Of a stretch of 64,000 nt of DNA, positions 1,865-52,550 are shown piece after piece. The notes beneath the pieces are model-generated. The model did no database searches and had not been told where the DNA came from. It was given only the letters and a program-made list of their open reading frames with translations. Each line of letters opens with the position of its first letter. Position 1 is the stretch's first letter. This stretch comes from Polytrichum commune (Eukaryota > Streptophyta > Polytrichopsida > Polytrichales > Polytrichaceae), in NCBI GenBank assembly GCA_950295325.1, contig OX485805.1, forward strand, positions 25,903,501-25,967,500. Direction: 5' to 3'. The position numbers were made by a program, and so were the translations under genes.

Positions 1865-4800
1865 ATGGCTTCGTTGCAGCTGGTGCGGGGAGCAGCAGCC
1901 GTGGCTGCTGCAACACTCGGCTATGGCAGTAGCAGCAAGCAGCAGGTGTCTTCTTCAGCTGGTACGCATTTGCAAATTTGAGCACATTCTCTTTGTCATC
2001 AGGGGTCCAATGTGGGAAATTATGTGAAAGGACATGGTGGGGAGGGTTTTGTGAGAATCCGGTGTTTGTGAGGTGTGGGATACTGTGGCAGCAGGTGTTC
2101 TGGGTTTTTGGGTTAGGATTGTGGAAGTGTTCTCTTGTTTTTTGGCGAATGTGAAGGTTGAGGGGTATTAAATTTCTGTGGGCGTGGGTGTTTGAAGGTC
2201 CAGGGAGCATGGGCGTTCTGATTATCTGTGAGGTTTATGTGGAAAAGTATGTGAAAGGATGTGGTGGGAGGATTTTGTGGAGAATTCGGTGTTTGAGGTG
2301 TGGGGATCTGTGGCAGCAGGTTTTCTGGGTTTTTGGGTTAGGATGGTGGAAGTGTTATCCTTTTTTGGGTAAAACTGTAGTTTGAGGTGTCGAAGGGAAC
2401 GCATTTGATTTTTGAGAGCACTGTGTTTGTCATCAGGGTTATGTGGAAACTTCATGTGAAAGGATATGGTGGGAAGATTTGTGGAGAATTTGGGTGTTGG
2501 GGTATTGGGTTTCTGTGGGTGTGGGGTTTTGAAGGTCCAGGGAGCTTGGGCATTCTGTTTGTCAGGGTTTCACGGAAAAACAAGTGAAAGGATATCATGG
2601 GAAGATTCTTGGAGATCCGATGTCTGGGGTGGGGGGATTTGCGGGTGCGGGGGTTTGAGGCAGCAGGTGTTCTGGGTTTTTGAGGTAGGATGGTGGAATT
2701 GATTTCTTTTCTTTGGTGAATTTGAAGTTTGAGGTGTTGGGTTTTTGTTGTGGGTCCAGGGAGCGTGGGCATGGGAGGCTTCTTCTTCCAAGGAGGGAGG
2801 GTGTCCTTGGCTGGGTGCCAAAGAAAGGAGGGCAGAGTATGTGGGCCATTGAGGGTGACCAATGTAGCCACTCCCGTCAAGGTCGAGGAGCAGTCTGCAG
2901 AGGTCGGTCATCTTAACCCTTTCCGATGCCTACATTTCAATCAAACAAAAACTATCAGTCAATGTGCGAAGTGAATACAATGTGGGAATTTGATCCTTAG
3001 ATTTGACAAGCTTTCATCCAAAGCTCAAATCATTGAGAGCTTCACGAATCGTCAAGGTCCTAACGATTTGAACAAGTGTAAAGTGGTCATGCTCAAAGTG
3101 AGATCATATCAAGGGGGTGAATGGTACTGTACAAAGGACAATTCATCCATGACAACCTAAAGAATTCTTCAAAGCCCATGAGCTTGGGGCCTACAAAACG
3201 AGAGCTTCAACTCTCAATATTCCTCTGCGACCTCCATGGAGTAGCTCAAGATTCTAACCCAGAGCTTGTCCTTAGTCGCTCCACATGATCAATCACGCCA
3301 TAATCTAAGCACTATAATCTAAGCATTATAAGCTCGGTAAAAACTTCAATCCCTCAAGTTTAAAGTTACAAGTGTAAATTGGACTTGAGTGAACAAAGAC
3401 GTGTAACATGAGGCTCCCTTCCACCAATGAAAAGGAACGCTCCTTTCTTCAAGCTCTAAATCTTCGAGAGGAAGACCTTATGTTGTGGAATTTACTTCAG
3501 CTCTGAAAAAACTAAAATCAGTTGGAATGTAAATTTGACACAGAGCAAGAAAGCCGCAAAGGAGAAGACTGCAAGGCCAGTGTTCCCATTCACAGCCATT
3601 GTAGGGCAAGAGGAGATGAAGCTTTGCTTGCTCCTGAATGTGATTGACCCCAAAATTGGAGGTGTGATGATCATGGGTGACCGAGGAACTGGCAAATCCA
3701 CAACCGTGAGAGCTCTTGTGGACTTGCTCCCAGATATTAAGGTTGTGACCGGTGACCCTTTCAACTCGGACCCTGAGGACCCTGAACTGATGAGCGAGGA
3801 GGTCCGGAAAAAAGTGCAGGCCAACATGGAGCTGTCTGTGCAAACGGCACGAATCAACATGGTGGATTTGCCTCTGGGAGCCACGGAGGATCGTGTTTGC
3901 GGAACCATCGACATTGAGAAGGCTCTCACGGAGGGAGTGAAGGCTTTTGAGCCCGGTCTGTTGGCAAAGGCAAACCGGGGCATTTTGTACGTCGATGAGG
4001 TTAATTTGCTTGATGACCACTTGGTTGACGTGTTGTTGGATGCGGCCGCATCCGGATGGAATACTGTGGAGAGGGAGGGTATTTCAATCTCGCATCCTGC
4101 GCGATTTATCTTGATCGGCTCCGGAAATCCAGAAGAGGGAGAGCTTCGTCCACAATTGCTCGACCGATTTGGCATGCACGCACAGGTATGTATAAAGAGT
4201 CATTAAGGGTTTTGGAGGGTATTTCAGAGGGGAGCTTGTCAAAGCGTTTCCCTCAGCAGAATGTGGGCGTATCCTGAAATGAATCAAACTTTTGTCTTCT
4301 GTTTTTCTTCCTCAGGGATTCTGTCAAAAGCCAAAAGATTATTTCCAAGCTTCTAAACTTTAAAAGCTTAGCATTACGTATCTCTTTTGATTCTTATTTG
4401 TGGTTTACTGGTTAGCGTTTTTTGTAAGTGTTGTCTGAACCTTGAGGATATTAGGTTGTGCATATTAAATTAAGCTCTGTGGGTTGGATGCATTCTACCT
4501 TTTCCTTCCCCTGCAATATTCTTGGTTTTATGAGCAGTGGTTACATAATCATCTGTCACAAGGCTTTTAAGGAATACACGTTTATGGTATTTAGTGTCAC
4601 GTACATAGTTGCAAAGGGCCTAAACTAGATGCCTAGAGTTATAAAGAATCACATCAGCTAATTGCCAATATAATACTATTCGTCAACATAAGTAATTTTC
4701 TTAAGTGAAGCATATCTGCATTATGACATTTAACGTCGCACATTTAGATACTTGAGATGATAGTTTTCCATTTTAGTATGCAAGGGGAAGATGCTTTTGA

Positions 4801-21130: not shown

Positions 21131-22427
21131 GCAATGTTGTGGGTGGAATTTGGGGGGGTGTTGGTGGTAATATTTAATGGGGAGGTTTGATTGGGGGATT
21201 GTTGGTGGGGGGGGGGGGATGTTTTTTATGGGGGCGTTTTTCCATATGTTTGAGAATTTAATGTGGTAATTTGGCGTTGTGGGTTTGATGGGGAATGTGT
21301 CTATGGGTGCGTTGATGGTATGTTCTAGTACTTGTGCGAGATCTTGTGGGGTTTTAGGCTTGGTGTGAGGTGGGCGTGGTTATGTATACATAGTATTGTT
21401 GTGAGCGAGGGTTCCACGTATTGGTAGTATTTTGGCCATTCCGGCGTAGGGTTATATAGTATGGTATGCGGAGGGATGGTTGCGAGGGTGTGTATGTCGC
21501 CACTTGTGGTAAGTGGGATTTGTTGTGTGGTCCAGTCGTTATGGTTGATTATGAGTATGGTGATCGTGTTTGAGTCTTCTTTGGCCGCCATTCTAGCCCA
21601 GTGGATGGCTTCAATGGTTGTTTTATGGTCTGTGGGGTAGGCTAAACCAATGCCTTTCCATCTAGATATTTGTGCGTGTCCTAGGGAGCCAAATATTATG
21701 TCTCGGTTATGGGGTGAGTGATGTTGTGTGGGGCATGTGAGTGGGGATGAATAGTAGGAGTGCGTGATTTTGAGGGAGTTTATTAATGTTGTGATAATTG
21801 TCGGGTGTATTGTATGGTGCATGTTTTGGGGTTGTATGTTTTTTGGCTTTCTTTTGGGGAGTATGGTTATGTATCTTTGTATTAGCCAAAGTATTTCAGT
21901 TTCAAAGTTTTGTGGTGGGGGTTGGAGGGCTTTTGTAATTTGTGAGAAGTGGTGGTAAGAAAATTGGTTCCATAGCCATTGTAGCCTTTCTGTAGTGATG
22001 GTGGCCATGTAGTTTCCTTTTTGGTCATATATGTTGGCTTCGGAGTTTTGTAGTTGGATGGTTGGTTGGTTTACTTGAATGTCTTTATCCGGGTTGCATT
22101 CTTGTATGGATAATTTTAGGTTGGTGATGTGAAGAGGGGGGTGTATGAATTTGTTGTCTTTTGATTGCATGTGATTGAGGCAATTAGCATATGTGTGGGT
22201 GGTTAATAGTTCAGCTTGCTTTGTGTGATATTGTGTAATACATAGTATGTTATGTTCTAGAAATATATTATCCGGGTGTAGTAGTTCTACCTCACTTCTC
22301 CATTGTTGTGTGATGCCTTGTGGAGTTTGCCATTGGCAAAGGTAGTTCGTCCTTATTGCTTGTGCACCCCATTTGTCTTTTTTGGTGGAGGTCTTTTCTT
22401 TTATTATTGTTTGGATTGCTTGTCCTA
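21131..22427 (-). pseudogene. LINE connector between RT and RNase H, frameshifted
   Basis: The reading frame starts in the G9 run at 22428-22436, runs open through ATG 22170 to TAG at 21327-21325, then resumes in a different frame (TPQDLAQVLEHTI) near 21340 and reaches the RNase H start at 21130. A G12 run at 21207-21218 is a second slip-prone site. The content is Gln/His/Thr/Pro-rich and has no recognised domain; position suggests the RT-to-RNase H connection. Confidence 0.6.
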
Positions 22428-24992
22428 GGGGGGGGGATATTCACCATGCCCTCGCTTTGTGTTGGTGTTTGTTGTATTGTGTTTGTAGAGTTTGTGGGTG
22501 GGGGGGGGGAACATTATTGTTGCTTGTTGGAGAGCCTCCTTGATGGTTTTGGGTATGTGTTTGTAAATGGATTGAAATTCTTTCGGGGTTAGTATGGCTT
22601 TGGTAGTAGAGTTTTGGATTTGTATTAGTGTGGTAATGCCGTATATGTATAGTTTGTCTAGATATTTTTGGGTCTTGGCTTTGGATATATCCGTTAGGGT
22701 GTTATAATTTGGGTTGGTTTTCCAAATTCTTTCTAGTGATGTTTCTTTGATGGGGAATGCTTGGCTTGTGGAATGGACGTGAATTTCATATTCTCTTTCA
22801 AGGAGGAAGAGTGTTCGGGCTATAGGGGAATGGACACATGCTTGTTGTTTGAGTTTGGGGAGGTATCGGGCCCCACCATACTTGGCCGCTATATGTTTGG
22901 TTAGCCCTTGGTATATAATGCCTAATTGGCCCGGGTCGTTAAGTGCTTGGATTAATTGTTGTCCTATGCATCGGATGTAGTCGGGTAGTAGGGAGGTGAC
23001 GTTAATGCCAAAGCTCTCTTGTGGGAGGTGGGTGAGAATGTTGGCCGAGCTTTTAGGAATGTTGCAAATTTCTTTGGTTAATTTGCTAATGATTTTGTCT
23101 AATTTTTTAATATCCGGTTTGGAGAATGGGACGGCGTAATAAGCGTATGCTATTCGCGGTTTAATGACTGTATTTAAGATTTTGATTTTTTGTGTGAGGC
23201 TAGCCGGTGAGGTAGTTAAGAGTTGGCTTTGTTGTTTGACTTTCTTCATCGTTATTTCTTTTTGTAGGTTCCATTTGAGTGATGGTGTGAGGTTTATTCC
23301 TAAATACGTATATGGTTCGTTTTGGGTGAGAATGGGGAAATTTTGAGAGTTGTATGTGATATGTTGTGATTGGATGTATGCTTTGAAGGTAGAGGGTTTT
23401 AGTTTAGATTTATTAGGGCATCCGGTAATGGCACATTTTGATAGATTGAGGTCCATGTGGGACCATTTCGCGAATTTTTGGAGTTTTGTCACTTGTGGTT
23501 GAATATGTAATATGTGGTCCGTTATAATAGCTAGGTCATCCGCGTATGCGGTTGTGGTACATGTGGCGGAGGACGTGTTGAAATGATAACCTATGTTATC
23601 TTTTTCTAGCCATCTTAGTAGTGGTTCGAGAAAAATGATAAAAAGATATGGGCTAAGGGTGTCCCCTTGTATGGTCCCGCGGCTTATTTCTATTGGGGGT
23701 GTCGTGCCAAAATGACTCCCGGTGAAGGATGTGGTGGAGTTGGTGTAGATATTGCCTACGATTTCTACCGCGTCTAATGGGTAGCCTAGGTCCTCCATTA
23801 TGGCTAGGAGTCTTGCGTGGTCTATAGAGCCGAAGGCATTTCTAAAGTCTATATAGGTTAAGTATATATATTTTGTGGTTAGTCTTGCATCTTCTAGTGT
23901 TGCTATGATCGTTTGAATTTGTCTCGAGGTATTTCGTTGTGGTCGAAAGCCTTCTTGGCTAAAGTGTAGTAATCTATGTTTTTCTCCGTAGCTTGTTAAG
24001 AGTGATGTTAGTGTACTAGTGTATAGTTTATAGATTGTATTAGCTAGGGAGATTGGTCTATAGTTGGATATGTGGGTGGGGTCGTCTTTTTTGTGTAATA
24101 AGATGGTCTTACTATGTTTCCAATAGTGCGGGATCGTTCTTTGTTTGTAACAATGTTTGAAAAATAGATATAGGAGGTCTTGCCATTGTGTGGGTAGTGT
24201 TTTAATGATATCATTTGGGATATTGTCTAGGCCCGGGGCTTTCCCTTTTGTTAGGCTTTTGACGCAACAATCGTACACTTCTCTAGTGAATTGGTTACTT
24301 ATTTGTGTATTGGGGTTGCCTCGTTTTTCTAGAATGATTCCTTGATGTGAGTGCCACGGATATCTTCTTACTGCGCATATGCACGTATTAGGGTGGTCCG
24401 TGATGTCCTCACATAGGGGGGCTTGTCGTTGGAATGAGGTTTGTTGGGTATGGTATATCTCCCTAGCTATTTCGGCGGGTTTGGTGAGGATTTGACCTTG
24501 GGGGTTTTGTATATAATCGAGTGTGTTGGTGGTTGTTGGGTGAAATATTTTTTTGTGGATGATTTTGGGTTTAGTATTTAGTAAGATTCTATATTTGTTA
24601 ATGGCGGCTTTGCAATTAAGTGAGGTTTGCTTGGTTATGATTTTGTGGGCTTCTGTCTTCGCATTTTTCCCTATAGTGGCTAGCTGAGCAATCCATGTGT
24701 GTATTTCTGTGGGATGTGGGGGTAGTGGTGGAATATTGGGGTTTCTTAGTAGTTGAAGATTTTTTATATCTGAGTGGTTATGTAGTTGTGTGTGCGGGTA
24801 GTGACATGCGGCTCTTATGGCTTTCCGGGTGTTATGGTATATTTTCAATTGATGTTTCCATTTATTCTGTTGGGTCCTGGGGAGAAATCCTCCTTGAGGT
24901 TTTACCCTATTTGGTAGTGGTGGGGTGGGGTAGGTCATGCATGTTTGTTCTATGCATTGACTGAGAGAGTTGGTAATTTCTTGGAGTTTGAA
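22425..24992 (-). pseudogene. LINE reverse transcriptase
   Basis: Open from the codon after TAA (24995-24993) to TAG at 22427-22425; the first ATG is at 24938. From that ATG, KGKAPGLDNIPNDIIK is at about 231-246, NYRPISL at 292-298, the catalytic YIDFRNAFGSID at 362-373, GTIQGDTLSPYLF at 421-433 and YADD at 465-468, followed by a thumb region. These are the non-LTR RT blocks in order, so the active site looks intact. It shares frame with the endonuclease ORF upstream. At the 3' side a run of nine G (22428-22436 on +) shifts the frame; the protein continues in another frame as LGQAIQTII and so on. Confidence 0.88.
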
Positions 24993-26552
24993 TTATGCGT
25001 CTTCCCATTGTGTTGGGGTAAGATATTCTTGGTGGAGTATTTGTGTAAGGTTCTCTATTGCTATATTTTGTTTTCCTATAAAGGTTGTTTGTAAGTTTTG
25101 GAGGTTGTTAGGGGGTATGGGGTATGTGATTCGTGGGGTGTTTATGGGGGTGGTGGATTCTTTGATGACTATAGTATTGGGGGCTAATTGTAGTTAGACT
25201 GGGTAGTGATCCGAGTTTTGGTTTAGGTTGGTTAGCGTGTGGCTATGAAGATTGGTGATATTGGGGTCGTTGGTGTAGAAGCCATCTATATGGCTAGTTG
25301 ATGTGTAGTTGTGGCCTCCTTGCCTTGTGAATTTTACTGGGTTATGGACCACTTTGAGTCCGTTGTTTCGTATGAAGCATGCCCATTCTTGGTCCTCCAT
25401 ATTAGGCGGGGTGGAAGTGCTATTATTGGTTCTTTCTTGTAGTAGTATGTCTCGGTTAAAGTCTCCGGCTAGTATGGTGGTGTGGTGGGGGTGTTGTACT
25501 ATGATGTTTTGAATTTGGTTTTGGATTTCGGGTATTAGGTACTCGTCATCTATGTGTGATGGCATGTACATGTTTAGGATGATTAGCGGTGTTAGTGGTT
25601 TGTTATTGATTATTATGGCTTGTAGGTAAGGTGAGATTAGGCTTGGGGTTGGTATTTTGGTGATGTTTTCGTTTGTGTATATTGATATTGGTATCATGGC
25701 TAGGATGCCACCTCTAGCTTGCGTGGGGCCCGCATATTTATTATGTCTTTGGGATGTGGTGTTTGAGTTGTTGTATATGATTTTGTATTCTTTTAGTTGG
25801 CGATCTATGTATGATGTGGATTTTATTTTTGGGATTTTGGTTTCTTGGATGAGTATAATATGAGGGTTGTTGTGTAGTGTTTGGGTGAGGTCTTGGATAC
25901 CGGGGAGGCTAGAGTTGATACATCCAGTGTTCCAAGTGATTATTTTCAGGGTTTGGGTTGTTGGGTTATTTGGCCTGGTATGTATGTGTGGAATGTCATA
26001 GTTAGGTATGTGTGTGTTGGGTTGGTATCCTTTTATTGTGTGGGAGCATTTAGTTAGTTCTTGCACTATTTTATTTGGGAGGTGGGATATTTCATTTTGT
26101 AGGTTTTCTGCGGTTATGGGTATTCCTTTAGCGATTTTGTCATTGATAATGGAATAAGCTTGTGGAATGGTGATTATTGTTGGGGTATGCAAGTTATGTT
26201 CATATGATGTGCGTGGGTGCATATTCATTGGCATTTTTTGTATTCTTCGGAGGATGGTTAGGTATCTGGGGTCAAGTTTGTTAGTCATTTTTTTATTACA
26301 TATTTGTGATAGTGGGCTATATGTTATAATAAGGGCATATATTTGGTGGTGTGTGGGGTAGTTTGAGAGTAATGATGAGTGGTTTTTTAGGTGTGTTAGT
26401 TCTTGAGAGTCGGGGGTGTTTTTGTTTAAATGGGGTTCAAATAGTTTTTCAAGGTGGGCGTATTGAGGTTTGAGTGTTAGGGTATTTGGAATAAAGTATT
26501 GTTTTTGCCTTTGTGTATATTCTTTGGGGAGGTTCTTGAGGATGGTTGAGAG

Positions 26553-26579
26553 CGGCCCCGGGTTTAGTTCAATGTCTCC
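26553..26579 (-). other. 2A-like (StopGo) ribosome-skipping motif 2
   Basis: Encodes GDIELNPGP, again an exact match to D(V/I)ExNPG|P, preceded by TWNNSTLILLH. It lies exactly 600 bp (200 codons) after motif 1, in the same frame and in a second copy of the surrounding module. Confidence 0.8.
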
Positions 26580-27152
26580 GTGGAGGAGTATGAGTGTAGA
26601 GTTGTTCCAAGTGTAATATGTTATGGTTTTAATTCTTGGTTTTGTGTGGTATGTGTGTGTTATGTAGTAGATGTTGCCTATATGTATCATTATATTAATG
26701 AGGGTGATTGTGTGGGTTGTGTTGTTGTGATTTGTGTGTAGGTTGTGTATTTGTTCATGTGTGGTGGATGTACATGTGGTGCCTTTTTTTTGGTTAGTTT
26801 CGTGTTTGGGGAAGGTAGTGAAAATACTATTGTGGTAATGTGTGTGATTATTATCGATGTGTTGATGTTTTGGTGATAGCGTGATGTGTGGTGGGAGTGG
26901 GAGTGTATGTGACTGTAGTGTGGGTGTTGTTGGTGTTTCCGTTAGGTAAGATTGTGGCATTTTTTTTTGTGTGTGGACTGATGATTTGTGTTGTAAGGGT
27001 GTTAGGTTTAGGTTTCGGGGGAAAGAGGCATGAAATTCAAATAATTCCTCTAGGTGTCCATATTGGGGTTTGAGTGTTAGTATTTTGGGTATAACATATT
27101 GGTGTTGTGTATGTGTGTATTCTTGAGGTCGGTTCATGGGAGTTTGTGATAT

Positions 27153-27179
27153 TGGGCCAGGATTAGGTTCCACATCTCC
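27153..27179 (-). other. 2A-like (StopGo) ribosome-skipping motif 1
   Basis: Encodes GDVEPNPGP, an exact match to the consensus D(V/I)ExNPG|P, preceded by TWNNSAIILQH. In known 2A peptides the ribosome skips the Gly-Pro bond and continues, releasing the upstream chain. Confidence 0.8.
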
Positions 27180-29171
27180 GTGTTGAAGGATTATTGCGGA
27201 GTTGTTCCAAGTGTAATATTTTATGGATTTAATTTTTGGATTTTTATGATGGGTGTGCGTTATGTGATATATGTTGCTTATGAGGGTTAGTATGTCTATT
27301 GGGGCCATTGGTGAGGTTATCTTATTTTGGGTGTTATGTTGGGTATTATAGTTGTTGTAGGAGTGTTTGTGTGTATTGTAAGTGTGGGTGTTGCCTTTAT
27401 TGGGGTTGGGGTGGTATGTGATAAGTGGGTGTGGTTGTTGTGTGAAGTGGTTGTGGGATGTGCATGAATGTGGTTTATTATATATATGGTTGTTGAGGGG
27501 GTGTGTGGAAGGGATTAAGGTGTTAATGAGGGATTGTGTTGTGGGTGTATGTTGTATTAGATTGTAAGTGGGGGTTGTGTAGTGGGTCTTGTTATGTGTG
27601 AAGGTTATACTAAATGGGATTTTTTTTGGTGGGGTGGTATGGGGGTTGGATTTGTTATGGTATGTAAGATTATCTTGGTGGGTGACGGGGGGGGGGGGGT
27701 GGCTTATCCAAATTATGAGGGTGAGACTTAATGTTATTATTTTTCTCATGCGGTAGTGTGGGTGTGTATGGGGGATTGGTGATGTGTGTGGGGGTAGCTT
27801 CCTTATGGGTTTTCCGGTTTGTATTTGATGGTGCTTAGTGTGGGTGTTTTTGTTGTGCCAATACAATGGTTTTAGTGTGTTTGTATATTTTTTGCTATAG
27901 GGGGGATATGTAGAGAGATACATAAAGTAAGAGAGTACTTGGAGTAGGAACAAGAATGTGGGCTCTTTATTATAAGATAACATCAAACTATAACATATAA
28001 GGTAGAGCGGCCATTTGTGATATGCTAAGGGGACACTATCCATTAAATGTGTGGGGTCCTTGATGGTACATTTGTTGGTTGTTTTGGAATCCGGGGGGGG
28101 GGCTTGGAGTGGTAGAGGTAGGGCGGTTGTATTGAGGCCGTGTATTGTTGGTGATGGGGCGGACCTATGCAATAGTTCCGGGGCGGCGGTGGAGAGACCG
28201 GTGATGATGCCTTGCATGCGGATGTTGGATTGTTGGAACTCATGTGCTATCGTACCAAGTAGCGCATGGAGGTTGGTGGAGTGGTTGGTGATGGTCGTTG
28301 TGGTTGCATCGTGTCTCCGATCCGTGTGGTTGTTTATGGTGGTAGTGAGAGAGCTAAACTTCTCATCTAGTTTATCCTCGAATTCCTTCATGGTTTTTGT
28401 AAGATGCTTCTCGGTGATGAGTGGGTGGAGGTTGGTGGCATTACCCATAGCTTGGATTTTATCCGCGATGACTTCTCTAACGGGAGCTTGAGCTAGTCGG
28501 ATCGCCGTCTTGTTGGGGGCCGTTCCATCGATGCTCCCATGGTGCGGAATGAAGTCGATGTGTCGTCCTAGAATGTAGGTAGACTTGTGTTTCCATGCCG
28601 TGTAGACCGCGGCGTTAAGACACTGAATGTGGCACCATCCTGCTTGCTTGTTGGTGGTACCTTGATTAGTGTTGCCAAAGCTAATGCCTACGACATTGTC
28701 TTCTCCAAAAATTTGCTTGATGGCCTTGGTGATGGCGGTTGGTGTCTCACGTTGTGGGAGGTTATTAGCCACTAGAGTTGTGCTAATTCGGAGTTCGGAT
28801 GGGTTGTCGCCATTCCTATCGCGGGTGATGCTCACTTGTAACCTCTCATTGTTGTAAACAATTCCTTCCTTGAGTACTAAATCCCTAGCCTCCTCCATGG
28901 TGAGAGTAAGAAAAGCAAAAATTTTATCGAGTTCCGGTTTGGCAAAACCCATAAACTCGTGTTGGTGGCCATTGTAGTAACTCTCTTGCACTAGTGACTC
29001 AAATATGGTAGATGTATGTTCATGGCGGAGGGTTTCACCTTTGAGGTGTAACCTTAGGTTGCGGGCTTTAGTAACTAATTCATACCCCTTTTCTACTTTA
29101 CCTATGACCCTTTCACCATCCTCCATTGCCATAACAAATGCTCTATGGCCTCTAAGTAACGCTATTCCATC

Positions 29172-30461
29172 TTATTGTGGGTTTTTTAGATGTACCTTAA
29201 TGAAACCCGCCCAATGTTTGGTGACGGCATTGGTCCCAATATCGATTGGGTTGGAGTAAGTTGAGCCAAGTGGGATGTCCATTTGTCGTAGTCGTTCCAC
29301 ACATGCTCCTCGTGCTTCGTGTTTGCTCATGCTTTTGAAGCCGTAGTCGAACCGGATGGTGATGTGGAAGCCCTCGGAAAGTCCGGTGGTGGTGTCCACT
29401 CTTTCTTGCCTTGGAATTTGCGTGAAGTGGAGGTGGTTACCGGGTACCGCATCCGGCCTCTCATTTGGATAACATATTTGTGGTACTCTTGGAAATGCAC
29501 GTCTAATGGTTTTGAACTCTATGACTTCATTTGTGGGGGTCCCTAATCTCTCAAATTCCTCAAGGGTACGAGTTTCATGGATGATTCCCTTACCCCTTTG
29601 TGTAGCGATGGCCTCGTGTATTGAGAAGCCTAACCACATGTGTGACACAATGTCAATGCTTGGGATTGCCTCTTTGGTGCGCGTGTTTGAAAGTTTGCTT
29701 GCGTCGGAGTTGAGTGCATGACCCCCTACTTCGCTCCTCCTACGTTTGGTGCTTTGTGTGTCTTTCACGGACTCTATCCTAGGACTTTTGTGTGGGTTGT
29801 TGGGAGGTGTCGCGTCATCGAGGTTGGTGATGTCCATTCGGTCGAGCGACATGACGGCTTGGCGGGGGGCGGCCAAGTACTCATCGTTTGAGGTAGAAAT
29901 GTGGAGGGAGCTTCCCCCATGCTCGGGTGTGACATTGTCGAGTTGCATGTCGATGTCGGCATCATGGTATGGTGTGGTTTTCTCTTTAAAAATTGCTGGT
30001 TGGCTAGGTGGTATGTCGATCTCTTCTTCATCCTCACTGTAATCTTGGATAAGTGCCCTCCTTCTTCCTGCACTTCGGGTGCTGGTGTTACGGTGCCTGC
30101 TGTTGGTGCTTCCGACCTCGATTCTAGAGCCGCCTCCTTCACTGCCATTAGCTGCTCCGGCTGCCTCCTTCCCGGCCGTTGGCTGCTTCTCTGCCGAGTA
30201 GAGCCTGGCTGCTCCCCGGCCGTTGGCTGCTTCCCATGTGCCTCCCTCTCCCGCTCCCGCCTCTGTGTCGATGTGGAACCCGCTGGCGCCTCCCGCTTCC
30301 GCACCTGCGCCGGTGTTGGGTTGCCCGCCGCTGATTCTCTCCTCCCTTCTCCCTTCTGCTTGACTCCTGAGGCTGCGACTGCTTGATCCTGAGTGGCGGA
30401 GGCGCTGCATTTGGGACGCTGCTGCTGAGTCCGCGGCTACTGGCTTACTGCTGGGTGTCAT
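29172..30461 (-). pseudogene. LINE ORF1, N-terminal part
   Basis: 429 codons from ATG at 30461 to TAA at 29174-29172. Residues 1-150 are low complexity (Ala/Gly/Ser/Glu/Arg) and GC-rich, unlike the rest of the element; 150-270 are acidic and basic by turns. From about 275 the chain becomes globular, with an RRM-like pattern around FHITIRFDYGF and WAGFIKVHLKNP. After TAA the same frame stays open for 13 codons into the ATG at 29132, and the protein character continues without a break. The TAA therefore looks like a nonsense mutation inside ORF1 (possibly from CAA), not its natural end. Expected role: RNA-binding partner of the element's RNA. Confidence 0.7.
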
Positions 30462-30479
30462 TGTGTCTGGGAGGGTGGG

Positions 30480-30660
30480 AAGAGAGGTGTGAGAGGTGGT
30501 GTGAGGTGTGAGAGGTGTGAGAGGTGTGAGAGATGTGTGTGAGGTGGGAGGGAGAGGTGTGTGGGAGGTGGGAGGGAGAGAGATGTGCGATGTGAGAGGG
30601 AGAGGAGTGTGAGAATGTGTGTGTTGGGAAGGTATTTGAGTGTGTGTGTGGAGCGAGAGA
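30480..30660. repeat. CT/GA-rich low-complexity repeat in the LINE 5' leader
   Basis: Many imperfect copies of gaggtgtgag and gagagaggtgtg on the + strand, i.e. CT/CA-rich in the element's sense. No open frame. Confidence 0.8.
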
Positions 30661-30874
30661 GATGGGCGGCTGTCTGTTGTTTTTGGGTGTGTGAGTAGAT
30701 TTGGGAGGTTGGTTTTGTGGGTTTCTACATACTTAGGGTGATGGGTTGGAATGTCAGATCTAATATGGGGGAGTGATGTGGATTTTGGTTGAGTAAGACA
30801 TTTAGATGGTGCTCCGCAAAATGATCAAGAAAGTGGCTATGGCCTCGGTTTGGATTTGCTAACCATCTCTCACT

Positions 30875-33451: not shown

Positions 33452-35156
33452 ATGGATGATCCCGGTGTCCAATTAGGGTTTAAGAAATTGTTAGGCGCTA
33501 GTTTTAAGGAGAAAGCGCTCACAGGAATCCTCAAGGTGGAGAGGATCGCAGGGAGGTCTGCCGCAACTCGGACATTTGCAAAGTACCCCCTCAAGTTTCT
33601 GTTACCGAGAAAGATCGTTTCTCGGGGTGTGGATGCGGTGTGGATATTTGCCATTTCATATGGCGGGGGAATCGTTTCCAACGATTCTATCAGTCAGAAC
33701 GTGGATATTGGAGCCTCCTGCTCCGCTGTCATCACCACGCAAGCGTCCACCAAGATCTACAAGTCTGTGAATGGACAATTCTGTGAGCAGATCCTCCAGG
33801 CTCAAGTTGGCCCGGAAGGCTTCCTCGCTGTTTTGCCCGACCCCATCACCTGCTTTGCAAATTCTAAGTACATTCAGGTAAGATCTCAAGTGCACCGTCC
33901 TGAATCTTGATAGAATGAGAGTTTTGTTACTTTGTTTGCTGGGTCCTTTGAACGCGATTCAATAGCACGAAGTGCCCAAAGAATTAGCACACGTAAAGAA
34001 AAATTGATTCATCAGAACCAGTACAGCTTTTCCATGCCAAATGTTTTTCGCAAAATGAAAGAAAAAATATGGGATCCACGTCACGACAAAATGAAGTACT
34101 CCTCACCCACATGGCTCAAGTGCAAATGTCTCATTGCACTATAGCAAAGGAGGAGTCCTCTTGAAGAAGGTTGATGCTCTCTTATATGTGTGCACAGAAC
34201 CAATTGCCTTCCTTTTTGCAAGTGCAAACTTATGATGATTGCACTAGTGGTTAAGACGAAACTTAAGACGAAATCCTCTTGAAGGTGGTTGAGGCTCTCT
34301 TAAAAGTGTGCACACAACCGCCTTCCTTTCCTCAAGCATCTATGTGTTGCGGTGAGTAACCTGGGAGTCATTTCCCTTACTCGATTTGGGCAACTATCCA
34401 CATGTCAGTTGAAGGCCACATACAAGTCGTGCATCCTCCCTGTTTTTCACATGGTTAAATGCACCAACGACCAGTAGGAGATTGCCTTTCTTTCTGCTTC
34501 TAGTGCCTCCATCTAACAGATCCCATCTCACATTGGTTAGAGGATTCCTTATTCTATCATAATACCTGTTGTAATGACAGGTGCAAGAGTTTTATCTCTC
34601 AGCAGGCGCCAATTTAGTGCTCATAGATTGGATGACAAGTGGCCGCATTGACAATGGGGAGAGTTGGGAATTTGAGATGTACAGAAGCACAAACCACATT
34701 TATGTTAACGAACAAGAAGCCGATGGCGACTTCGGCAAGTCGAAACCTGTCTTCTTAGACTCTGTCTGTTTAGAGCAAGGTGTTGGAACATCGGTCGCAG
34801 ACCGAATGCAAGGTTTCCATGTGGTGGCGACAATGGTGATTTATGGACCAAAATTGGCAGGGTTGCGAGGCAGTGTTCAGAAGAAAGTGCAAGAGCTCAC
34901 ACAGGGGGCTTTCACACGACGAAAATCGGTCGAATTGACATCTCAGTTGAGAGATTATTCAACCTGCTCATCAAAGCGTGCAACAACTAACATCGAGCCT
35001 TTGATATTTATATCCTGTAGTACTATAGGGCTACAAGATGAAGGTTTAGTGGTGCGTGTAGTCGCGAGTAACACCGAACTCATGTATAACTTTTTCAAAG
35101 AGCAATTGGCTGTCATAGTCCATATTACTGGAGCTTGCCCTTATGCTGGCAGATGA
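33452..35156 (+). CDS. URED: Urease accessory protein UreD (2 exons)
   Basis: UreD binds apo-urease and, with UreF and UreG, guides nickel into the active site in the cytosol. Exons 33452-33877 and 34581-35156, GT-AG, phase 0, 333 aa; this is somewhat longer than most plant UreD proteins, mainly through an N-terminal extension and inserts. Family features seen: GGGIVSNDSI, TTQASTKIYKS, LPDPITCF at the end of exon 1; then SAGANLVLIDWMTSGR, ESWEFEMYRSTNHIY, PVFLDSV and a long amphipathic C-terminal part. An in-frame ATG at 33437 is also possible; 33452 (MDDPG) is preferred on length. The intron carries the second copy of the repeat found in the NYN intron. No frame damage, so probably functional. 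Confidence 0.9.
34080..34570. repeat. Dispersed repeat, copy 2 (in the URED intron)
   Basis: Colinear with 1-420 in the same orientation. It also contains an internal partial duplication: gtcctcttgaaggnggttgangctctctt occurs at about 34153 and 34270. Confidence 0.55.
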
Positions 35157-49848: not shown

Positions 49849-52086
49849 TCAATCTGCCCATGAACCTGTTGCAAATATGAAGCTAGCTTCAGAGGATCCC
49901 GTTGTGGTTGTGCCGGCCCGACCTCGCCATCCTTGTCTGTGGGAAGAATTCGAGCGGTGATCATCCAATACAGATTCACTGCTATCGAATCTCACAGGCT
50001 TGTCGAAACCAAACATCAAACTCGGTTTGCATGCTGGCAAAGACGGCATCAATACCTCGCCCACCAGGACCTGGTGAGCGACACGCATCTTGGGTCTTGC
50101 ATCGGGATCCGGGTGGCAGCACAACAACCCAAGCTGCAACAAACACGTCAATTGCTCCACGTCAAACATTGATTCTAACCTAGGGTCTGCAACACGGAGG
50201 AGATGACCATCCTCGTGGGCACACCACACATAGTCGACCAGCGTCGTAAACTTTTCCTCCTCTTCCTGCTCTTCAGACAGGGTGAACTCGATCAGCGCAG
50301 GTCTTCCGCATGCCACTACCAGTGCGAGAACTCCAAAGCTGAAGACATCGGATTTTTCCGTTGCTCTCCCTGTGTGCGCCATCTCGGGTGCAATGTAGCC
50401 GAAAGTGCCTGCCAGGCGGGTTTGTTTGGAGGAAACGCTGTGGTTCATGAACCGCGCCAACCCAAAATCACCAAGATGCGCATTGAATTCCTCGTCCAGC
50501 AAGACGTTACTATCTTTTAGGTCTCTGTGCAGGACACGCTTCTTCCATCCATCGTGTAGGTAAGTGACCGCGGCGGCCACTCCCATCATGATGTGGTGGC
50601 GCTTCTCCCACGTGAGCACTGGCTTTGACTCATGAGACGGAAAAATCCATTTGTCAAGGCTGTTGTTGGGCATGTACTTGTACACAAGCAATAGGTGTTC
50701 ATTTTCCCAACACCAGCCGTAGAGCTGAACTAGGTTTCGGTGACGAATCTGGCTGATGACGGAAACCTCCGCAAGGAAATTGCCTGCAGCACGAGCTTCA
50801 GCGGATGATTGCAGCATGCGTTTCACAGCTACATCGATATTATTCATGGATCTCGTGTCTCTCACAGCCCCCTTGAATACTTGACCAAACCCCCCCTTGC
50901 CCAACACATGGTCCTCGCTGAAGCCATTGGTGGCGCTGCTAAGCTCCTCGTATGTGAACTGCCGTAACCACATGTGCTCCTGCTCAAACTGCATCTTGAT
51001 ATTCAAAGCAACCGTGTCCGCTCCTTCATCAAGTTGCCCCTGCGCTTGTTTCGCACGCACAATAGCACGACGACGCATGAGTAGAAGACACGCTGCAAGG
51101 CCAATAAGAAGAATCAAGGCCACCCCTGTGGCGAGTCCGGCGACCAGGCCAACCTGTGAATTACTTTTTTTCGCGAGCTGCATTATCAAATTACTGGAGC
51201 TTTGGAAGCTCCACGACTTGATGTGGTGAACCTCCGGAGCACTGGCAACTGAGCCACTGAATCCGACGTACATGTAGTCGTCAACCACGCCGCTTAGGTC
51301 AAGGTTCTTCACGGTTATGATCGGGGTTGCAGGCCTTGCCACACCTTGAAGGGTTGATCCTTTTGTGAAACGAACTTGTAGGGTTTGGTTTCCCCCATCG
51401 TAGTCAATCCAGGAAGTGAAGTCGTCGCCTGCAATGAGGTACACGCAAGAGTTTATTGAACTACATAGATCGAAGAAAGCTGTTGAGTTCATGCTGTTGA
51501 CATTGACACCGATGTGATTGGCACTAGGATCATTGAACTCGGGGTTTTCCCAAGTATCAAATTCCACTGCAAACACGTGGTTGTTTGCGTCTCCGTTGTG
51601 TGTCTTATTCAAAAGGCACATACAAGCACCGGCGCCTGCGAGTGTAGAATTGTGCTGGTTATAAGTAGCAAGCATGAAGGCGAACCCGGCGGAACTACTC
51701 CCCATAATTGAAAAAGTGAAGGCAGTACTGAACGAGGCTACTCTTTTTGGCGCAGTTGTATTAGAAGACGTCCGCATTTGGACAAGCTGTGAATACAGCA
51801 CCTGTCCACAAGTAAAGTTACGAAAGGGGCTGGCGCTGGAAGCGTCCGCATTGAGCAAGACGGAGGAACCGTTAACTCGTGAATCGTTCACAAATGTGAG
51901 CAATGAATTGTCACTGGAGCTGGAATTGAAGGTATTAAAGGCAAAAGTGGTGGTGTTCAGGCTAAGACCTTGACATGTGGACAGAGTTGTAATTGTCAGG
52001 TAGGCTAGAAGAAGCACTCGGCAGACTAAGAGGCGCCAACTTGAGGCTGCAAGTGAGCTGCCCAAAATCGTTGGAAGCAGCAGCAT
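49849..52086 (-). CDS. L-type lectin-domain receptor kinase
   Basis: Single exon, 745 aa, plasma membrane. Signal peptide 1-39, legume-lectin domain about 40-295 ([16 protein letters not shown] and NHIGVNVNS carry the usual metal-site residues), transmembrane segment about 312-337 followed by MRRR. Kinase domain about 392-680: glycine loop GKGGFG at 396-401, Lys422 in [14 protein letters not shown] at 520-527, DFG at 540-542, APE at 566-568. All catalytic residues are present, so an active Ser/Thr kinase is expected (RD type). The lectin domain of such kinases senses extracellular signals, often in defence; the ligand here is unknown. The C-terminal tail after 690 is Ser/Thr/Gly-rich. Its last segment is tandemly amplified downstream. 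Confidence 0.92.
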
Positions 52087-52550
52087 TTTGTCACCTCACG
52101 TAATAAACTCGGGCTAGCCCTACCCCATCCTCCCTGAACAATTGCAGGTATTGCTGTTCAACCCCCATCTATGGATCTGAAGGAGGTCTCACTTCTCTTG
52201 AACATCTTCGGTAAACGAAATCCAAGTTTCGTTGACAAGATGCACCCTGAGAAACAAATCACTGGTGTACTTACATCACAAAATCTTAGAATTATGTCAC
52301 TCCCGGTGCGCACACTCGCTTCAAAACTGCGCCGCAGTAGGCATCGCAGCGAGGGTGTCGGGTGTGAGCCTGCAGCGCAGGGGGGAAAGACGTCCAAAGT
52401 CACGATTCCATAGTCTTCGAGATTACTGCCCATGGTCGATCACTTCCAGAGATTTTCACAACTTGTCAGACCATGTCGACAAGAAATATTATCGTGTAAA
52501 GAAGCAACCTTGAAATTACTAACAACTTGTACTAACTGTCTTCCGAGCTA

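Follow-up and report, generated by a model that had tools for sequence, protein, structure and literature searches.

Two exact 2A-like motifs within a single reading frame of a plant retrotransposon raise the question of whether a land plant makes natural use of StopGo recoding, in which the nascent chain prevents one peptide bond from forming and translation continues beyond it, and, if so, how many products such an element would release. The locus lies in a 64,000-nucleotide stretch of chromosomal DNA, here called the window. Its host is firmly a green plant and likely a moss; the assembly includes a 146,561-bp contig bearing the plastid genes rbcL, atpB, accD, psaA and psaB, and the best PDB matches of psaA are 8htu and 6l35, which we take to be moss photosystem I. 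A piece of rbcL also resides in a nuclear chromosome (C3:14137891-14138196), likely as a plastid-to-nucleus insertion. Apart from the retrotransposon, the window contains genes of plant type: a frame for a lectin-domain protein kinase (Lectin_legB and kinase; 49849-52095, minus strand), a UreD exon (34578-35156, plus strand) and a Mg-chelatase/MCM-like exon (3460-4206, plus strand).

The element in the window and its relatives

The two motifs, GDVEPNPGP and GDIELNPGP, are located at residues 665 and 865 in a frame that spans 1,325 residues from stop to stop (25194-29171, minus strand), for which the composition of the frame itself would predict 3e-6 occurrences of D[VI]ExNPGP. Both sites carry the 2A core (D/G/C/N)(V/I)ExNPGP and both are flanked by the RRM-like part of ORF1 on one side and the endonuclease on the other, so that the exact D(V/I)ExNPG/P matches and the placement reported in the first-pass annotation are each borne out, on the minus strand. 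Judged from their sequence, they appear to be authentic 2A/StopGo sites carried by a LINE that resides in a plant genome. The features of the element are collected in Table 1.

Table 1. Features of the window element and of a GC-rich element in its relatives (window positions unless a locus is named)
Feature	Position	Strand	Remarks
First part of ORF1	29172..30824	minus	Cut off by in-frame stop 29172-29174
Second part of ORF1	28044..29171	minus	RRM-like and coiled-coil region
C-run	28093..28102	minus	10 C on minus strand; puts ORF1 end into ORF2 frame in window copy
ORF2 AUG	28041..28043	minus	Overlapping stop-start AUGGAUAG; leader begins MDSVPLAYHKWPLYLIC
First copy of duplicated 2A unit	27030..27266	minus	
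Putative 2A/StopGo site 1, GDVEPNPG/P (distal unit)	27153..27179	minus	D codon at 27176; L-rich context ...NNSAIILQHGDVEPNPGP
Second copy of duplicated 2A unit	26424..26666	minus	
Putative 2A/StopGo site 2, GDIELNPG/P (proximal to endonuclease)	26553..26579	minus	D codon at 26576; Preceded by L-rich ...NNSTLILLHGDIELNPGP; conservation assessed codon by codon in 59 stretches
Post-2A domain	25947..26555	minus	Starts with P of NPG/P; an alignment of 12 sequences from three subfamilies has 21 invariant columns
AP-type endonuclease domain	25197..25949	minus	Alignment to L048 and L045
Reverse transcriptase frame	22425..24992	minus	RVT_1, E 2.1e-33
PCIF1_WW-like segment	21325..22440	minus	E 1.7e-6, under Pfam cut-off in window
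RNase H segment	19703..21379	minus	PF00075, E 7.6e-13
GC-rich element	L048:3376-3395; L049:3710 and 3863; L050:3065; 16 further loci of L024-L043		

Its domains and frames identify the window element as a defective member of a large family of non-LTR elements (LINEs). A stop interrupts ORF1 where relatives stay open, at least two more fall between the endonuclease and the reverse transcriptase (25194-25196 and 24993-24995), and the frame changes behind the latter. In the relative L048, ORF1 runs to at least 723 residues, and ORF2 occupies a frame of 2,919 codons with the Pfam order Exo_endo_phos, RVT_1, PCIF1_WW and RNase_H. This order recurs in L044 (PCIF1_WW under the cut-off) and, with frame interruptions, in the window; L045 has no RNase H match within the 10 kb examined. 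The endonuclease is followed by the reverse transcriptase in one frame in L048, L044 and L045, the order of APE-type non-LTR elements, which the window retains in interrupted form. Pfam missed the endonuclease when the frame of the window itself was searched; this domain was identified through 43-45% identity between relatives, one of which exceeds the Pfam cut-off, with Exo_endo_phos above the cut-off in L048 and L044 and just below it in L045.

The remaining parts of the element are less readily assigned. ORF1 has no curated Pfam match and its model is poor (mean pLDDT 45.8); Foldseek ranks tandem-RRM proteins highest, among them nucleolin and NONO/SFPQ, and this modelling supports an RRM-like ORF1, with nothing more specific. 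The Pfam search of the window frames returned no match for the post-2A domain, which is predicted, at low confidence, to be helical (mean pLDDT 55.5). The best PDB sequence matches of the reverse transcriptase are R2 proteins, which do not place its clade. The PCIF1_WW-like segment between the reverse transcriptase and RNase H reaches E 2.5e-12 in L048, above the Pfam cut-off, and is weaker in the window, L044 and L045. PCIF1 itself is known as an mRNA cap methyltransferase, and no LINE with PCIF1_WW was among the literature matches listed.

Occurrence and conservation of the 2A site

Across the genome searched (408 Mb in 64 contigs, seven of 42-78 Mb), the DNA pattern for D[V/I/M]ExNPGP has 273 matches versus 0 for the reversed pattern, a control on which a chance origin of the motifs was rejected. 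One hundred of these places were listed, covering C1 and C2 up to 64.1 Mb, and from them 20 were picked deliberately outside the match list of a 323-residue query from the window and examined with 1.5 kb around each. All 20 precede the same post-2A domain, P(M)P(N/D)(I/L)L..HP..., two being visibly frame-shifted or deleted soon after, and they constitute two further subfamilies, B and C, beside the window's own subfamily A. The upstream contexts read ...YYTWNNSTLILLHGDIELNPGP in A, ...YYFINKL.LLKCGDIE.NPGP in B and ...LLLLSGDIETNPGP in C. Those of A and C have little in common beyond the L-rich end, a stretch closing in SG, CG or HG that was recognised by eye in all three subfamilies, and the post-2A domains of the three are 28-33% identical. 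Pattern matches in IMG/VR (36) and GTDB contigs (388), databases that do not hold plants as such, yielded 0 confirmed relatives.

The 323-residue query, which itself contained the motif, has at least 144 matches in the genome among the best candidates scored; 60 of these were examined and 59 span the second motif. These 59 stretches are not independent: the window is one of them, L008 and L018 are a single locus entered twice, and some elements contribute paired units. Across the 59, the core residues G, D, I, N, P, G and P depart from the consensus in 14 of 413 cells (3.4%). Departures over the flanks of the same stretches amount to 226/1,118 for the 20 residues upstream and 376/1,733 for the 30 downstream (20-22%). 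Synonymous departures number 121/399 in the core, 245/892 upstream and 243/1,357 downstream; since the core varies this freely at synonymous positions and departs in only 3.4% of its residues, it has the peptide-level character expected of a 2A. The Asn and the second Gly are invariant (59/59), with all four codons used for the Gly before the break. Outside the seven-residue core, p14 is E in 40, Q in 11 and H in 8 stretches, and p15, the x of the motif, is a freely variable position. Such conservation is what characterises a peptide-level signal.

A second sample was drawn with the endonuclease of L048 as the query, which gave 150 matches, 70 of them on C1 and C2 and 68 within the part of these contigs that the pattern list covers fully. 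An exact 2A site lies 625-1112 nt upstream of 49 of these 68, and in 47 of the 49 at 625-669 nt. The other 19 comprise four with GDIHPNPGP, three with GDIKxNPGP, five with one NPGP residue changed, four whose exact site is 1.6-3.5 kb upstream on the same strand (presumably in the same element) and three without a call (L100, L105 and L108). Absence of the motif from related elements had been named beforehand as one finding that would speak against 2A sites here; relatives instead keep it at the homologous place.

The least decayed copies deserve separate mention. Nine endonuclease matches lie in frames of at least 2,000 codons, and these include five with the exact site, three with GDIKPNPGP (L102, L119 and L120) and one with GDIELNLGP (L121); Lys at p14 occurs also in L098 and in L095, the latter of subfamily C. 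The presence of Lys in long-frame copies implies that at least one recent sublineage multiplied with the charge at p14 reversed. Either GDIK is functional in the host or the element can do without the site for a while; on the same sequences, either the variants are active or recent copies have no need of a canonical site. In the sections of one survey that were consulted (PMC12846837), E14Q kept 26-56% of activity in F2A-type tests, His at p14 exceeded 95% in a natural context, and no report on Lys at p14 was found there. The GDIKPNPGP sublineage, with its long open ORF2 frames, offers a natural test of the need for the p14 residue.

A separate observation concerns a GC-rich element of about 20 nt (CTCGGCCTACCGGCCTCGCC) located upstream of the 2A in subfamilies B and C. 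It is translated in different frames in different copies and would thus act, if at all, as nucleic acid. Its 15-mer GGCCTACCGGCCTCG occurs 322 times in the genome versus 0 for the reversed sequence, and on C1 68 of 83 occurrences are followed within 5 kb by an exact 2A of their own strand, and none has an opposite-strand 2A nearby. With up to three mismatches allowed, the element was not found in the window, L001-L023 or L044-L047.

The ORF1/ORF2 junction and the duplicated 2A units

Where the sites belong in the coding plan of the family is indicated by the end of ORF1. A scan of 27 subfamily A loci, with a pattern that itself demands a stop-start overlap, found AUG(G/A)AUAG at the ORF1/ORF2 junction in 15, and in 12 of these 15 the conserved ORF1 end QAPP(G)F is in frame with the overlapping UAG. 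The three junctions in which it is out of frame, those of the window (L001), L011 and L012, have differing C-runs just before. The window has 10 C and its 99.3%-identical relative L002, which keeps the ORF1 stop, has 11; the single frame from ORF1 to the endonuclease is therefore a state of the window copy, and such a frame was dropped as the design of the family in light of the 12 in-frame junctions. Since the UAG and AUG overlap at the ORF1 end, the 2A sites lie in the ORF2 leader and should free the endonuclease-reverse transcriptase from it. They stand about 170-294 residues after the ORF2 AUG in the junction loci, L045 having 2As 170 and 324 residues after its junction AUG. No such stop-start junction was found in the subfamily B and C sequences examined. 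The C-run before the ORF1 stop varies within subfamily A (10, 11, 14 and 20 C in L001, L002, L005 and L007, respectively) and could be a slippage site.

The occurrence of two 2As in one frame, as first annotated, is true of the window frame, though not as two separate sites: both belong to one internally duplicated unit that recurs in the family. The two window units, of about 80 residues each, agree in 172 of 243 nucleotides and 51 of 81 residues once aligned, and a site in each copy of one unit means one duplicated motif, not two independent gains. A functional 200-residue product between the sites was likewise dropped, the segment being a partial unit copy plus low-complexity sequence. The matches to the 323-residue query cluster to at least 102 loci, in which units projected from the alignments number one in 67, two in 29, three in 5 and none in 1, giving two or more in 34 of 102. 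Unit spacing falls into classes of about 159/306, 258, 462, 486-489, 600 and 792 nt, which indicates several duplication events. NPGP is kept in 33 of 35 units at 15 chosen multi-unit loci, a set with related pairs in it (window/L002, L045/L046 and L112/L118). Four loci (L112, L113, L117 and L118) combine A-type units with a B-like unit (...LLxQCGDIHPNPGPMPxLL...), and such mixed arrays suggest, by their sequence, an exchange between subfamilies.

Proposed translation, alternatives and known systems

It is probable that the window holds a broken copy of a LINE whose intact relatives encode ORF1 and then an ORF2 composed of a leader, one or more 2A sites, a domain of about 200 residues, endonuclease, reverse transcriptase, PCIF1_WW-like segment and RNase H, with ORF2 translated by coupled reinitiation and its leader released at NPG/P. 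In the window's subfamily, ORF2 would probably start by termination-coupled reinitiation at AUGGAUAG, and the ribosome would translate the N-terminal leader first. The nascent L-rich...GD(I/V)ExNPG chain would then block the next peptide bond at NPG/P and free the leader, after which the same ribosome would resume at the proline to produce an endonuclease-reverse transcriptase protein with an N-terminal proline. As the 2A unit has been duplicated repeatedly, one or two additional short peptides would be expected from some of the elements. The chances appear evenly balanced for the wider proposition that a land plant naturally uses StopGo and that a long-kept LINE 2A has turned into a movable, duplicable module, with two or three 2As, some from different subfamilies, yielding a variable set of peptides from one stop-start-coupled ORF2.

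Other accounts of the motifs must be weighed against leader release. NPGP could be conserved as part of a folded protein and not as a skipping signal, a reading compatible with its place at the start of a conserved domain and with the persistence of Q, H or K at p14; it is nonetheless unlikely, as the fixed and free positions are those of a 2A, the upstream sequences of subfamilies A and C are otherwise unrelated, and arrays keep the motif in units with an incomplete downstream domain. The polyprotein of the first-pass annotation, in which one frame would release ORF1, a 200-residue peptide and the endonuclease-reverse transcriptase, draws on the window frame, which opens within ORF1 and continues across both 2As and the endonuclease, and C-runs of unequal length could in principle slip. 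Twelve of the 15 junctions, that of the near-identical L002 included, place the 2As within ORF2 instead, and the window copy is broken in ORF1, leaving this scheme rather improbable.

We likewise hold out little prospect for a targeting role on the sea urchin model, in which the 2A would act as a switch within a signal-like leader, the skipped product being cytoplasmic and the unskipped one directed to membranes. ORF2 leaders do start with hydrophobic stretches (MDS....WPLYLICYSLML), and sea urchin proteins provide a precedent, yet the distance from AUG to 2A is much greater than in signal-peptide 2As, and subfamilies B and C lack such a recognised start. An origin of the elements in contamination, or in a small number of insertions acquired recently from an animal, would fit the 2A-LINEs known in trypanosomes and sea urchin. 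It is very improbable given matches on all seven large contigs, the kinase, UreD and Mg-chelatase/MCM-like frames that share the window, and three subfamilies whose divergence in the post-2A domain implies long residence.

Should leader release hold, the hundreds of genomic sites in one plant lineage would become a source of native plant 2A sequences, making available natural variants at p14 (Q, H and K) and in the upstream stretch, a record of 2A site duplication and exchange, and a means of finding out whether release of its enzyme from a leader is essential to a LINE. Work by Heras in 2006 and Odon in 2013 reportedly placed 2As in non-LTR retrotransposons, namely L1Tc/ingi of trypanosomes and APE-type LINEs of animals. 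According to the parts of a 2026 virus survey that were consulted, StopGo works in plants, no natural use by plant viruses was found and cellular use is rare (PMC12846837); the context for 2As and LINEs was further drawn from parts of PMC4981915 and PMC5009743, among others. No plant LINE with a 2A was found in the literature searched, which did not cover Odon 2013 or Rao 2025, and priority is unproven.

The family resembles L1Tc/ingi and the animal APE-type LINEs, so far as the accounts consulted describe them, in bearing a 2A octapeptide near the N-terminus of a protein with endonuclease and reverse transcriptase, and differs in its plant host, in the two- or three-unit arrays in a third of the loci of one subfamily (34/102), in the PCIF1_WW-like segment between reverse transcriptase and RNase H, and in the AUGGAUAG overlap of ORF1 and ORF2. 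Picornaviruses with several 2A(NPGP) sequences likewise part short accessory stretches by successive 2As whose number differs among close relatives (PMC11512398, in part), whereas here the host molecule is a chromosomal LINE whose additional units can be seen to derive from its own 2A unit by duplication or exchange. The upstream stretch, as judged by eye, is like that of the LLLLSG StopGo class in being L-rich, in ending (A/S/C)G before D and in having D at p12 (PMC12846837, in the sections consulted), and is unlike it in the His that precedes this Gly in subfamily A and in the p14 variants Q, H and K. Finally, the overlap of the ORF1 stop with the ORF2 start is shared with the silkworm LINE SART1, whose ORF2 is driven by such an overlap, and with other stop-start coupled LINEs (PMC5972666, in part), but the overlap is UAAUG in SART1 and AUGGAUAG in the present family, where a 2A follows further on in the same ORF2.
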